The notes under the pieces: generated by a model
What the model saw: only the letters and a program-made list of their open reading frames with translations
Databases searched by the model: none
What the model was told of the DNA's origin: nothing
NCBI GenBank assembly: GCA_023150835.1
Contig: JAKLKB010000204.1
Span: 1 to 7,019 of the forward strand
Source of the DNA: Myxococcota bacterium
GTDB lineage: Bacteria; Myxococcota_C; UBA6777
DNA: 7,019 nucleotides
Direction of reading: 5' to 3'
Made by a program: the position numbers and the translations under genes
Shown: one piece after another, positions 1,244 through 7,019 of the stretch
Layout of the letters: every line of letters begins with the position of its first letter
Numbering within the stretch: position 1 is the stretch's first letter

Positions 1244-1975
1244 GTGGCCGTCATCTTTCCGCGTTGGACCAACCGATTGCCCCTAATGCTGCTTGGATTT
1301 GTAGCGGCAGGGGGCGCATTTGCAACCTTTGGCGTATGGTACTGGTTTTCTCCCGAGTTTACGGACGTGGGGTATGCCCCCGTCCAACCCGTGGCGTTCA
1401 GTCATAAACTGCACGCGGGCGAACTTGGGATGGATTGCCGTTATTGCCATTCGACCGTCGAAAAAGCTGCGCACGCCGCTGTGCCGCCGACGGCGGTCTG
1501 TATGGGATGCCATACCCAAGTCCTCCCCAAAAGCCCCAAGCTCGAACTCGTGCGCCAAAGCTATCAAACAGGCAAGCCGATTCCTTGGGTGCGTGTGCAT
1601 ATGCTCCCTGATTACTCGTTCTTTGATCACAGCGTACACGTTGCAGCAGGCGTTGGATGCGCCAGTTGTCACGGTCGGATCGACAAGATGACCCGCGTGT
1701 ACCAGCACCAACCACTGAGTATGGGCTGGTGTCTCGATTGCCACCGCGATCCGAACAAACACCTCCGCCCAAGCAACAAAGTGACGCAGATGGATTGGGA
1801 GGGTTCCACTCAACAAGTGGCCTATAATCCGTCGAAAGATCCAAGCCGCGCACGTCGCAAAGATATCGCAGCGCACCGCGACTTGATGAAAAAAGGTCAC
1901 ACGATCCGCGTTGCCAAAAATCCCCATGATGTAGTTGTCAATCCACCCGAACATTGCTCTGGATGCCACCGATGA
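1244..1975 (+). CDS. actA: Alternative complex III subunit ActA, pentaheme cytochrome c
   Basis: A 243-residue membrane-anchored multihaem cytochrome that carries electrons out of ACIII. Five CxxCH haem c attachment motifs are visible: CRYCH at 65-69, CMGCH at 86-90, CASCH at 139-143, CLDCH at 163-167 and CSGCH at 238-242. The last one is one residue before the stop. Five haems is the number known for ActA of Rhodothermus marinus. An uncleaved N-terminal helix (about residues 13-35) follows a short basic N-terminus, so the haem domain should lie in the periplasm. Several other His residues (H54, H57, H119, H129, H132) are candidate distal haem ligands. The start is the GTG at 1244, preceded at 7 bases by AAAGGTG. 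The stop overlaps the actB start as ATGA, implying translational coupling. The following actB and actC make the assignment secure against other multihaem cytochromes such as NrfB- or cytochrome c7-like proteins. Confidence 0.93.
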   Translation: MAVIFPRWTNRLPLMLLGFVAAGGAFATFGVWYWFSPEFTDVGYAPVQPVAFSHKLHAGELGMDCRYCHSTVEKAAHAAVPPTAVCMGCHTQVLPKSPKLELVRQSYQTGKPIPWVRVHMLPDYSFFDHSVHVAAGVGCASCHGRIDKMTRVYQHQPLSMGWCLDCHRDPNKHLRPSNKVTQMDWEGSTQQVAYNPSKDPSRARRKDIAAHRDLMKKGHTIRVAKNPHDVVVNPPEHCSGCHR

Positions 1976-4900
1976 AAAAAGACTTGCAAGATCCAAAATA
2001 TGCTGCGGTGAGCGAGAGTGCAGAGGTCAGCGTATCCGAACCACAGGATGCACAGACCGAGCCGCAGGCTTTCTGGCGAAGTATCGAAGATAAAGAAGGA
2101 AATCCCACCTTCCCAGCCTCTTGGGATTACGAATACACTCCCGATGCACAAGAGATCGCCGAGTATACCAACGTCAGCCGTCGTCAATTTCTCGGACTGA
2201 TGGGTGCATCGGCTGCTCTTGCGGGTGTCGTTTCGACAGGTTGTTTGCGTAAGCCAGTCGAGCGCATCTTGCCGTATGCCAAACGACCCGAAGAACTGAT
2301 CCCGGGCAAACCGCTGTTTTTTGCAACGGCTACCCACATTGGAAACGCTGTGTTGGGCTTGTTGGTGGAAAGCCAAGATGGCCGACCCACCAAGGTTGAA
2401 GGAAACCCCGAACATCCGATGAGCTACGGAGCGACGGATGTGTGGGCGCAGTCCTCTGTTCTCGATCTGTATGATCCCGATCGTGGGCAGTTTCCGACCC
2501 ATGCTCAAAAACAAGCGACATGGGATGCCGTGTTTCAAGCCCTCAAAGGCCAACTCGAAACACTCGGAAAGAAGGGCGGCGAAGGGCTTGCTATCCTCAG
2601 CGAAGCGATTCCGTCCCCGACGTTCCACGATCTGCTTGCAACGCTGAAAGCGCGCCTGCCCAAGTCTCGGTACTTTTGTTATGACACGGCGGATACTCCC
2701 CAAACATCCGAAGGTTTGGCGATGGCTGGAGCCGCCGAGACTCAAGTCAGCTACGCCCTCAACAAAGCCGATGTGATCCTTTCGCTCGAATACGATTTCC
2801 TCGGACACGAGGGAGATTCCGTTCGCCAAGCGCGTTTGTTTGCAGCACGTCGCAAGATCGACAAACAGATGTGCCGTTTGTATGCCGTCGAAGGGACATT
2901 TACAACGACGGGCGCAGCCGCTGATCACCGCCTCCGCGTTCAAAGTAGCCAAGTCGGCGAATTCTTGGGTGCGTTGGTCGCTCATCTGGCCGAGCAAAAA
3001 CACATCGCGGTGGAGGCTGGATTGCTTGCCAACTTGAGCAAGCGTGCGGAAGCTGCGAAAAAGACCCACGGTGGGGACTTTGCGAAGTGGATTCCAGTTG
3101 TTGCGGAAGATCTGGTCGCCCACAAAGGCCGCGCTGCGGTGATGGTGGGTGAGTCGCAATCGAAGCATGTCCACGCACTCGGTGCGTTGCTCAACGATGC
3201 GCTCGGAAACATCGGCCAAGACAAGCCTGTTCAATTCTTCTCAAAAGGCAACACCGCAGCGGCAGGTTCGCTGCTTGATCTGGTGGCCTCTGCGTTCAAA
3301 GGCCAAGTGCAAACCTTGATCATCCTCGGCGGAAACCCCGTATACAACGCCCCCGCCGATGTGGACTTTGCAAAGCTGTTGCAGCGTATCCCGTTCTCGT
3401 TGCATCACAGCTTCTATTCGGACGAAACATCCGCGCTGACGACGTGGTACGCGCCGATGAGCCATTATCTCGAAGCATGGGGCGATCTGCGCGCAACCGA
3501 CGGCACCACAGCGATCCGTCAACCGTTGATCGCACCGCTGTTTGACACGATTTCAGAGATCGAGATGTTGTCGTTTGTTGCGGGCGAAGCAAGCAACAAA
3601 GGCCATGATCTTGTGCGCGCCTACTGGAAAAAAACAGTCGGCGATGTCGGGTTTGAAGGCAAATGGCGCGCTTGGTTACACGACGGTGTGATCGATGGAA
3701 CCCGTGAGAAAGTCAAAGGCGTCTCCGTAAAAGCTTCCAAACTGGTCGATGCGTGGGGCGGATCCCCTGAGGCGGTATCCAAAGGCAACAGCTTTGAGCT
3801 TCGCTTTGTTCTGGACAACAAAGTCCACGACGGTCGTTTTGCCAACAACGCTTGGCTCCAAGAACTGCCTGATCCGATGACCAAACTGACGTGGGACAAC
3901 GCAGCGTTGCTGTCACCCAAAACAGCCGCAGCACTCGGCGTCAGCAACGGGACATGGGTCGAGATCAGCATCCAAGGTCGAAAGGCCGAGATGCCCGTGT
4001 TTTTTGCGCCCGGTATCGCCGAGAATACGATCGCCTTGCCGCTCGGTTATGGTCGCGCTTGGGGCCGCGTCTCGAAGGGATGCGGATTCAATACCTATCC
4101 GCTGCGTAGCTCGCTGACGATGTACCACGCCAAGGGCGCGTCGGTGAAAAAGCTCGACAAAGAAAATTACGAACTGGCTTCGACCCAAGAACACGGTCGT
4201 CTCGAAGAACCGATTACAGGGCGCAGCCGAAAAGATGCGATCTTCCGCGAACTGCCGCTTGCGGGTTATCTCGAACTCAAAGAGAAAAATCCGGGCTTCA
4301 TGGAAGATTACGAACTGATGCCCAAGAACAAGATCAAGTCCTTGTGGAAAGAACCCAATGAGCGTGGCGGCCATCAATGGGGGATGACCATCGACTTGAC
4401 GTCTTGCACAGGTTGCAACGTTTGTACAGTCGCATGCCAAGCCGAAAACAACATCCCAGTGGTCGGAAAAGCTCGCGTGCTCAAAGGCCGAGAGATGCAC
4501 TGGATCCGCTTGGATCGCTACTACACCGGACCTGTGGAGAATCCCGAAGCCGCGTTGCAGCCCGTCGCTTGTGTTCACTGCGAAACAGCGCCTTGCGAAA
4601 ACGTCTGCCCAGTTGCTGCAACGGCCCACAGCCCCGAAGGGATGAACGATATCGCGTACAACCGCTGTATCGGAACACGTTATTGCGCCAACAACTGCCC
4701 CTACAAAGTGCGTCGTTTTAACTACTTCAACTTTAACAAAGAAAACGACGAACAAAACGCGCTGCTACAGATGCAACGCAACCCCGATGTGACAGTTCGT
4801 TTCCGTGGTGTGATCGAGAAATGCAGCTACTGCGTGCAGCGCGTTAGCGAAGCCAAGATCTACGCCAAAGCCAACGGTGACGGCTATGTCAAAGATGCCT

Positions 4901-5295
4901 ATGCGTTCGCCAAAGTGAACGCCGATGGTGTCGAGGTCGTCAACGCGACTGAACTCAAAGAGTCGGTGGTTCCGGCCTGTGCGCAAGCCTGCCCGTCGCA
5001 AGCCATCGTATTCGGAGATATCAACAATCCTCAAAGTCGCGTCTCTCAACACAAAAAAGAAGCACGCGATTATGCGGTGTTGCGCGAATTGAACATTCGC
5101 CCGCGCACGACTTATTTGGCGCAGATCCGCAATCGCAACCCCAAGATCGCGCCGAAGTTGCAAGGCAAGGCAGCGGAACTCCTCGAAGGTGGTGTGAAAC
5201 CCGCCAAGGCAGGCCATGCTGCACATCACGGACACGACAAGCACCACGACAAGAGCAAAGGCGGCCAACACGACAAGGGAAAGAGCGGCCACTAA
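1972..5295 (+). CDS. actB: Alternative complex III subunit ActB, fused molybdopterin-like/Fe-S protein
   Basis: A 1107-residue fusion of a molybdopterin-oxidoreductase-like domain (about 95-790) and a four-cluster ferredoxin domain (about 805-1030). In characterised ACIII the first domain carries no molybdenum cofactor and the second relays electrons from quinol to the ActA haems. The N-terminus has the family's FWRSIED block (34-40) and a late twin-arginine signal, SRRQFLG (69-75), followed by a hydrophobic stretch to G90-C91. This layout is typical of ActB. Cysteine groups are C812/815/818/822, C867/870/875/879, C899/905/909 and C951/954/1003/1007. The third reads CIGTRYC, with Thr where a cluster Cys would be. 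This matches the three [4Fe-4S] plus one [3Fe-4S] clusters known for ActB, although which ligands share a cluster is inferred. The tail 1081-1107 is Lys/Gly-rich with eight His. The start is the ATG at 1972 overlapping the actA stop; in-frame ATG 1963 and TTG 1954 are possible but less likely. Confidence 0.95.
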   Translation: MKKDLQDPKYAAVSESAEVSVSEPQDAQTEPQAFWRSIEDKEGNPTFPASWDYEYTPDAQEIAEYTNVSRRQFLGLMGASAALAGVVSTGCLRKPVERILPYAKRPEELIPGKPLFFATATHIGNAVLGLLVESQDGRPTKVEGNPEHPMSYGATDVWAQSSVLDLYDPDRGQFPTHAQKQATWDAVFQALKGQLETLGKKGGEGLAILSEAIPSPTFHDLLATLKARLPKSRYFCYDTADTPQTSEGLAMAGAAETQVSYALNKADVILSLEYDFLGHEGDSVRQARLFAARRKIDKQMCRLYAVEGTFTTTGAAADHRLRVQSSQVGEFLGALVAHLAEQKHIAVEAGLLANLSKRAEAAKKTHGGDFAKWIPVVAEDLVAHKGRAAVMVGESQSKHVHALGALLNDALGNIGQDKPVQFFSKGNTAAAGSLLDLVASAFKGQVQTLIILGGNPVYNAPADVDFAKLLQRIPFSLHHSFYSDETSALTTWYAPMSHYLEAWGDLRATDGTTAIRQPLIAPLFDTISEIEMLSFVAGEASNKGHDLVRAYWKKTVGDVGFEGKWRAWLHDGVIDGTREKVKGVSVKASKLVDAWGGSPEAVSKGNSFELRFVLDNKVHDGRFANNAWLQELPDPMTKLTWDNAALLSPKTAAALGVSNGTWVEISIQGRKAEMPVFFAPGIAENTIALPLGYGRAWGRVSKGCGFNTYPLRSSLTMYHAKGASVKKLDKENYELASTQEHGRLEEPITGRSRKDAIFRELPLAGYLELKEKNPGFMEDYELMPKNKIKSLWKEPNERGGHQWGMTIDLTSCTGCNVCTVACQAENNIPVVGKARVLKGREMHWIRLDRYYTGPVENPEAALQPVACVHCETAPCENVCPVAATAHSPEGMNDIAYNRCIGTRYCANNCPYKVRRFNYFNFNKENDEQNALLQMQRNPDVTVRFRGVIEKCSYCVQRVSEAKIYAKANGDGYVKDAYAFAKVNADGVEVVNATELKESVVPACAQACPSQAIVFGDINNPQSRVSQHKKEARDYAVLRELNIRPRTTYLAQIRNRNPKIAPKLQGKAAELLEGGVKPAKAGHAAHHGHDKHHDKSKGGQHDKGKSGH

Positions 5296-5401: not shown

Positions 5402-5416
5402 TGGGTAGTGAAGATC

Positions 5417-6841
5417 ATGGTTTCACGTTCTGAATACTACGATTCACAGGTTCGCTATGCTGATCCGACCGAAGGTCGTGCCCCGCTGGTGTTGGGTGAC
5501 ACTTCTTTCCACCGAATCACCGAGTCCGTGACACAACCGATCGAGTCCCCGACACCGATCGGCTGGTTTATGTTCTTTTTCGTCGCGTTGTGTGGTCTGG
5601 CGATCTTGGGCGCAAGTGTCGGCTACTTGTTTTGGGAAGGCGTCGGGATCTGGGGCGTCAACAACCCTGTTGGATGGGGTTGGGCGATCGTTAACTTCGT
5701 CTTTTGGGTGGGTATCGGCCACGCTGGGACGCTGATCTCCGCTGTGTTGTTCTTGTTCCGCCAAAAATGGCGCACCTCGATCAACCGTGCCGCCGAAGCG
5801 ATGACGCTTTTTGCGGTGGCGTGCGCGTTGATCTTCCCCGGTATCCACACAGGTCGGGTCTGGATGGCGTACTACATGTTGCCGATCCCCAACCAGATGC
5901 TGATGTGGCCGCAGTTCCGCAGTCCGCTGATCTGGGATATCTTTGCGGTCAGCATCTACGGAACCGTCTCGCTGTTGTTTTGGTACGTGGGTTTGATCCC
6001 TGACCTCGCGACCATGCGCGACCGCGCAAAGACCAAACTTCGTCGCATCTTGTACGGCTTCTTTGCGCTCGGTTGGCGCGGTTCGCACCGTCATTGGCTG
6101 AACTACGAACGCGCCTATCTGTTGCTTGCTGCACTCGCTACACCGCTCGTTCTTTCCGTCCACTCGATCGTCTCCTTCGACTTTGCCACCTCCCAACTTC
6201 CGGGATGGCACACCACGATCTTCCCGCCTTACTTCGTTGCAGGCGCGATCTTCTCGGGCTTTGCGATGGTGATCACGCTGATGGTCTTTACGCGGGTGAT
6301 CTTCAAACTCGAACACCTGATCACGATCCGCCACTTTGAGAATATGGCCAAGATCATCCTGTTGACGGGTTCTTTGGTCGGCTATGCTTATACGATGGAG
6401 TTCTTCATCGCATGGTACAGCGGCAACGGTTACGAAACCTTTGCCTTTATCAACCGCGCTTTTGGTCCCTATTATTGGGCGTATTGGACGATGTTTAGCT
6501 GCAACGTCTTTGTTCCTCAGATCTTTTGGTTCAAATGGGCGCGCACCAATATCGTGGTGCTCTTTATCGTCTCGATCTTCGTCAACATCGGGATGTGGTT
6601 TGAGCGTTTCGTGATCACGGTGACGTCCTTGCATCGGGACTTTTTGCCTTCGAGCTGGGGCTATTTTGTTCCGACGATCTGGGACGTGCTGACCTTTGTG
6701 GGCAGCTTTGGATTGTTCTTTACCTTGTACTCGCTGTTTGTGCGCTTTTTGCCTGTCGTGGCGATCGCCGAAGTCAAAACCGTTGTACCCGAAGCAGACC
6801 CCCATTTTCACCCCAAAGAAGACGCCGGACACGCGGCGTAA
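5417..6841 (+). CDS. actC: Alternative complex III subunit ActC, NrfD-like membrane protein
   Basis: A 474-residue integral membrane protein of the NrfD/PsrC family. In ACIII this subunit is embedded beside ActB and carries a quinol oxidation site near the periplasmic face. About ten hydrophobic helices can be picked out, beginning near residue 48 after a soluble N-terminus. Conserved-looking polar residues within or beside helices include [10 protein letters not shown] (99-108, H102), the GIHTGRVW block (142-149), W173-D174 before AVSIYGT, and [12 protein letters not shown] (262-273, H265). These are typical of ActC/ActF proteins; I assign ActC from its place directly after actB. The C-terminus is soluble and mildly His/Asp-rich. 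I prefer the ATG at 5417, with AGTGA just upstream; a GTG at 5408 would add three residues. Either start lies within 16 bases of the CRISPR-like repeat pair, so that hairpin could influence translation. No actD, actE or actF follows within the window. Confidence 0.93.
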
Positions 6842-6849
6842 GCCCACGG

Positions 6850-6867
6850 CTTTTGCTTTGCAAAAAG
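6850..6867 (+). terminator. Weak AT-rich hairpin after actC
   Basis: TTTTGC (6851-6856) pairs with GCAAAA (6860-6865) around a TTT loop, nine bases after the actC stop. It is A/T-rich and lacks a following T-run, so it is a poor intrinsic terminator. It may instead be chance, or a structure flanking the mobile-element end proposed just downstream. Confidence 0.2.
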
Positions 6868-6874
6868 GATCTAC

Positions 6875-7019
6875 GGTCAGTCAATGACCCACCCCTAAAG
6901 GGGCGGGCTTGTTTCGGCAAGTCCGGTTGACCAGACGACAACAGAGGAAGTGGCGCAAGCCAAGTTGTTTGTAAACGATAGAGAGTATGTAGAGACCCTC
7001 GGATGCCGCCTCAGTTCGG
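6875..7019 (+). ncRNA. HEARO / IscB-type omega RNA scaffold, cut by the window end
   Basis: This stretch does not code and folds into a chain of compact hairpins. GGTCA/TGACC lies at 6875-6889, with GTCAA (6880-6884) alternatively able to pair with TTGAC (6927-6931). CCC-A-CCCC pairs with GGGG-C-GGG at 6888-6907 around TAAA. CTTG/CAAG closes on a TTCG loop at 6908-6921. ACAAC (6938-6942) pairs with GTTGT (6964-6968) and encloses TGGC-GCAA-GCCA (6951-6962), a GNRA tetraloop. The word order, from GTCAATGACC through GACGACAAC to the AGTATGTAGAGACC-type tail, matches my memory of HEARO RNAs. These are the omega RNAs encoded just 5' of iscB, the RNA-guided nuclease genes related to Cas9. I recall the family but have not aligned it. 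The exact 5' boundary is uncertain. iscB itself would lie beyond the right edge on the same strand. Confidence 0.68.

Follow-up and report, generated by a model that had tools for sequence, protein, structure and literature searches.

The act operon and the RNA at the contig end

The window, by which we mean the whole 7,019-nucleotide stretch analysed here, is the entire contig C166, one of 239 contigs that make up a 7.56 Mb genome. Its gene order is SCO1/SenC, then the alternative complex III genes actA (encoding a multihaem cytochrome), actB and actC, then 140 bases reaching the contig end. The actB gene (1954-5295) is a single ORF in which two parts of alternative complex III, the molybdopterin-oxidoreductase-like one and the iron-sulfur one, are joined. 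The features from actC onward, whose stop codon occupies 6839-6841, are as follows.

5408..6841, + strand: actC (NrfD-like), the gene 5' of the insertion (ORF; PF03916 NrfD; 99% identity in the same-genus genome G001)
6864..6879, + strand: predicted omega RNA guide, 16 nt of host DNA adjoining the element's left side (placed from the HEARO 5' end)
6865..6869, + strand: native Shine-Dalgarno (SD) sequence of actD, AAGGA, now separated from its start codon (same sequence 5' of the actD ATG at the G001 empty site)
6880..7019, + strand: left end of an IscB element, the 5' part of a HEARO omega RNA, which stops at the contig end (RF02033; copies 93-100% identical; boundary from seven aligned left ends)

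The original prediction of a HEARO/omega RNA behind actC was confirmed with the covariance model it had proposed as a check: RF02033 matched 6880-7019 on the + strand with 35.8 bits (E 3.2e-6), covering model positions 1-119 of 211, and copies elsewhere in the genome score over the cutoff. A search of the window at the Rfam gathering threshold (gathering score 83) returned nothing, since roughly half of the RNA is missing. The RNA does run off the window as predicted, at an assembly break within a repeat, but it begins 38 bases after the actC stop rather than the 33 first proposed: an alignment of seven left ends begins with the GTCAA at 6880, and their flanks are unrelated. This left boundary coincides with the 5' end of the HEARO RNA, which puts the predicted guide in the flank; we take 6864..6879 to have this function from what is known of IscB. 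The sequence GTCA stands at the end of the host flank and again at the element start (6876-6883; CTACGGTCA followed by GTCAATGACC), while other copies have it once, and the actC-side copy may therefore have a 4-nt duplication, which would shift its guide.

Copies and insertion sites in the genome

The same ~140 bases occur at six further places in this genome with 93-100% identity, at the ends of contigs C218, C106, C145, C220 and C52 and inside C193, where the copy is complete. Right ends lie on C238, C198, C100, C212, C171 and C87 and in the complete C193 copy; there are thus about seven near-identical copies, and the assembly is therefore broken. The interior of the copy between actC and actD is missing from the assembly, apart from the last ~35 iscB codons on C238, and its closest complete relative is the C193 copy (93% identical). 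The HEARO RNA of C193 scores 91 bits, exceeding the gathering cutoff, as does that of the complete C226 copy. Directly 3' of the C193 RNA is an intact iscB (NF040563, 326 bits; PF14239 RRXRR plus HNH), and the nearest solved structures to its product are IscBs, which supports the prediction of an IscB system. No transposase was found in the C193 element, and a search of the genome for a Y1 transposase gave only two borderline PF01797 matches. Since this transposase is absent from most IscB elements (PMC9755519), its lack does not exclude IS200/IS605-like membership. Decayed relatives are numerous in the genome, with iscB C-terminal and HEARO-only remnants on C135, C225, C171, C68, C180, C37 and C169 (L024, L041, L042, L027, L026, L025, L028).

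The genome's sole actD lies at the end of C238, a contig that opens with the right end of the element. Its start comprises the last ~35 iscB codons plus the right end, is 99% identical to C193 and ends one base before the actD ATG; the junction reads CGCGCCTTAAAAACG followed by ATGAAGTGGCAAAAG, in which ATGAAG is the actD start. In G001, actC and actD are adjacent and form an empty site, with the junction AAAAAGGATACGTTG followed by ATGAAGTGG. Because the C238 right end abuts the actD ATG and G001 retains the empty site, we infer that the element was placed between the native actD SD (anti-SD duplex -5.7 kcal/mol) and the actD start codon, in the same reading direction as actD. The placement within a respiratory operon suggested in the original prediction is real, and this is its exact spot. 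The physical link between C166 and C238 is drawn from synteny with G001, as no contig spans the junction, and is probable on that ground.

All seven right ends in this genome are directly followed by ATGA. With G001 as the empty-site reference, five sites could be paired on both sides and two more on one side, and at the five the insertion is precise, beside this short motif, and has not duplicated the target. Of the eight sites that could be located, six coincide with gene starts (actD, metK and four others), and the remaining two interrupt genes. The invaded metK is single-copy in the genome and is entered at its start; on C172, a divergent element likewise borders the start of a gene (DUF533/TerB). 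A SAM riboswitch ahead of the C52 copy might have matched C52 to metK, but none was found, and their pairing is tentative. Joining C106 (left) to C171 (right) as one site was rejected, since G001 has two separate intact loci. At the two in-gene insertions (C193 and C218/C87), G001 has ACGA in place of ATGA, a synonymous GAT/GAC difference both times (L016:482-483 / L103; L038 and L101), which may be due to chance or to the other lineage having lost the motif.

Gene starts and right ends in other genomes and viral contigs

IscB relatives were gathered from species genomes, further genomes, plasmids and phages, with HEARO 5' ends mapped by Rfam and right ends taken as the terminal hairpin after iscB. 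Insertions were called start-like when an ORF of at least 80 codons ran from the ATG and an in-frame stop lay upstream once the flanks were joined; background rates for ATGA came from the flanks of the same loci. Across phyla, 27 of 39 ATGA insertions were start-like, compared with 49 of 561 (9%) other ATGA sites in these flanks (p 4e-20). About a third of ATGA insertions are away from gene starts, with the same right end. A native SD (anti-SD duplex <= -5 kcal/mol) was present in the 14 nt left of the element at 52% of start-like insertions, versus 3-17% in more upstream windows (p 1e-6) and 9% at other insertions.

Genes beginning at junctions include lgt, yhbY, npdG, rsmB, DAHP synthase, fliR, oppC and a CBS protein, and the Pfam domains of metK, yhbY, npdG and the CBS protein begin at residue 2-4. 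On annotated plasmids, thioredoxin, metallophosphoesterase and two other CDS are annotated as starting at the junction, and on pMEGA the iscB stop overlaps ATGA. Cultured hosts with such annotated junctions include Anoxybacillus amylolyticus (pDSM15939_1) and Pseudoalteromonas translucida TAC125 (pMEGA). An Anaerolineae locus (L158:2073-2194) has a SAM-I/IV riboswitch match slightly above the gathering score, and a cysteine-desulfurase-like ORF starts at its IscB junction. In a Methanohalobium MAG, the archaeal L108 element (ATGA) abuts npdG at the gene start without a clear SD, while in L182, L202 and L215 the hairpin is followed by GTGA, the SD is absent and the junction has no ORF.

Right ends follow a common order of SD, terminal hairpin, short linker and ATG. 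Anti-SD pairing of the 14 nt directly 5' of the terminal hairpin averages -7.0 kcal/mol over 24 right-end clusters (-1.2 in upstream windows of the same sequences), and -5 kcal/mol is reached in 75% of clusters versus 8% of upstream windows (p 6e-8). The hairpin lies mostly 6-11 nt from the ATG, and folding of the hairpin leaves 5-9 nt between SD and ATG in most cases, or 12-17 nt in some families; the right ends therefore have the parts of a split ribosome-binding site, namely an SD, a stable hairpin and an AUG at working distance when folded. Outer stems vary in sequence among families and keep their complementarity, and the inner stem has compensatory changes; RNAalifold, run on a MAFFT alignment, did not recover the outer stem because the sequences were misaligned there. 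Automatic assignment of right ends by hairpin energy was sometimes wrong (L120/L123, L266, cyanobacterial L178 and several viral loci), and these loci were kept in, where they dilute the signal.

In the predicted fold of the actD copy, the SD AAAGGG is unpaired and is followed by the hairpin and a 9-nt linker; this SD is modest (-4.4 kcal/mol), and the fold of this right end is no more stable than shuffles. The C193 copy, away from a gene start, has a weaker AAAGAG (-2.1 kcal/mol). The 5' arm of the right-end hairpin often contains TTCCTCC, complementary to the SD just before it (e.g., L044:9920-9960), and by pairing with the SD the arm could hide it and work as a switch.

A further 80 loci from viral contigs were collected after the hypothesis was set and were processed automatically; as the pipeline had been tuned on earlier data, they represent a replication on new loci that was not fully blind. 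Where ATGA followed the hairpin (n=41), a right-end SD was present in 73% versus 9% of control windows (p 4e-12), and an ORF of at least 60 codons started at the junction in 19 of 41 against a null of 13% (p 2e-7). Among loci with a mapped left end, an SD lay left of the element in 93% of 14 start-like cases (p 1e-6) versus 42% of others. The right-end SD was found in 15 of 19 start insertions and 15 of 22 non-start insertions, a similarity that is expected if the SD belongs to the element. Viral hairpins without ATGA also had an SD in 43%, partly from misplaced right ends.

Alternatively, this may be an ordinary IscB element with an ATGA target, enriched at gene starts by the purging of in-gene insertions and carrying a tract without any translational role. 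Such elements are known to need a short target motif for insertion, IsrB has NTGA as a known TAM (PMC9581776), and two copies in this genome do sit inside genes. However, where an ATGA site interrupts no ORF, it precedes one in only 8 of 119 cases, against about 28 of 39 insertions. Insertion between SD and ATG should also do harm unless repaired, yet single-copy metK is invaded, and the purine tract is positioned at the foot of the hairpin while its reading frame varies. We consider this explanation unlikely.

In IS200/IS605 elements, what is recognised at the ends is a hairpin that has a short guide sequence at its foot. The tract could by analogy be a DNA signal for the Y1 transposase, like the guides beside the IS608 end hairpins, or it could pair with the hairpin CCTCC, its SD likeness being incidental; the complementarity of TTCCTCC in the 5' arm to GGAGG fits this reading. 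However, the tract pairs with neither ATGA nor TCAT, and L110 retains AAGGAGGT despite a hairpin without TTCCTCC. Right ends without NTGA, which belong to families with other target motifs, keep the hairpin and mostly lack the tract (mean -0.6 vs -4.9, p 1e-4). Several copies of the NP119 family have lost the pre-hairpin tract and instead carry GAAAGG or GGAGG ~10 nt before the ATG, after the hairpin (L134, L144, L166, L168, L171 and L174, from the same family of bacteria). These observations make a transposase signal improbable, more so than the purging of in-gene insertions.

Conservation of the tract as coding sequence for the IscB C terminus is very improbable: one large group does read GAA AGG AGG (ERR) in frame, but the tract occurs in all three iscB frames (ERR, KEV, PEGG, KGG; phases 0/1/2: 9, 13 and 14) and 3' of the iscB stop in six elements, so protein sequence does not hold it. 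The notion that the bases behind actC are chance hairpins and not HEARO could appeal to the missing match at the gathering threshold, but it is refuted by an E of 3e-6 for half an RNA, by the same sequence in threshold-passing copies 5' of iscB and by the right end before actD.

A proposed portable ribosome-binding site and related systems

The explanation we favor is that 6880-7019 is the left end of an IS200/IS605-like IscB (HEARO) element made up of omega RNA, iscB and right-end hairpin. In this reading the element entered directly 5' of the ATGA at which actD begins and did not duplicate its target; iscB and actD point the same way, and ATGA is the right-flank motif and presumably the IscB TAM. 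Such an insertion would separate actD from its own SD and should silence a gene. The right end may supply a replacement SD, and the folded hairpin would put this new SD at the normal distance, acting as a portable split ribosome-binding site. Ribosomes would then use the element's SD, as the sequence arrangement suggests, and actD would be translated as the cistron following iscB. Furthermore, with the guide lying outside the element on its 5' side, the omega RNA would need a host promoter, which a gene leader could supply; here the host operon promoter would probably transcribe the omega RNA plus guide.

We regard this explanation of an IscB element at the actD start as quite probable. With slightly less assurance, we think it likely that a large share of the IscB/HEARO elements found in different phyla and on viral contigs seek start codons: they would insert between the SD and an ATGA start, restore translation through a hairpin-split SD and gain a host promoter for their outside guide, which would open even single-copy housekeeping genes such as metK to invasion.

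IscB is regarded as ancestral to Cas9, and we found no account of how hosts tolerate IscB elements, nor of how an RNA is transcribed when its guide lies outside the element's 5' end. If the favored reading is true, start-codon insertion in gene leaders together with a built-in ribosome-binding site answers both questions, the replacement site making insertions harmless. It would also account for a target motif that consists of a start codon plus A, and it predicts iscB-linked expression of invaded genes. Our literature search, with the founding HEARO/OMEGA papers outside it, found none linking IscB to host-gene start codons or ribosome-binding sites; an SD is mentioned in a single OMEGA paper, where it is isrB's own. 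While the HEARO RNA and the IscB nuclease are already known, we provisionally regard the start-codon/SD right end as new.

The element agrees with HEARO (RF02033)/IscB OMEGA systems of the IS200/IS605 type in its left-edge model match, the downstream iscB with split RuvC and HNH that its C193 copy carries, its right-end hairpin, the lack of target duplication and an NTGA-type right flank. It differs in its start-codon position and its SD-hairpin-linker right end, for which no description was found. The IsrB OMEGA nickase DtIsrB likewise has NTGA as target-adjacent motif (PMC9581776) and an SD adjoining element hairpins, but in that system the SD stands where the omega RNA ends and is the one for isrB, whereas the SD reported here belongs to the right end and would act for the host gene. 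IscB families with an NTAAA-like motif, such as OrufIscB (PMC13180657), share the nuclease fold, the omega RNA and the shape of the right-end hairpin, but related right ends without NTGA in our data mostly lack an SD. In phage T4 genes 38 and 25, the SD and AUG are far apart and a hairpin between them brings them to working distance (PMC3014915), as proposed here. The T4 split site is part of a phage gene leader, whereas the one proposed here belongs to a mobile element and abuts whichever gene the element has entered.
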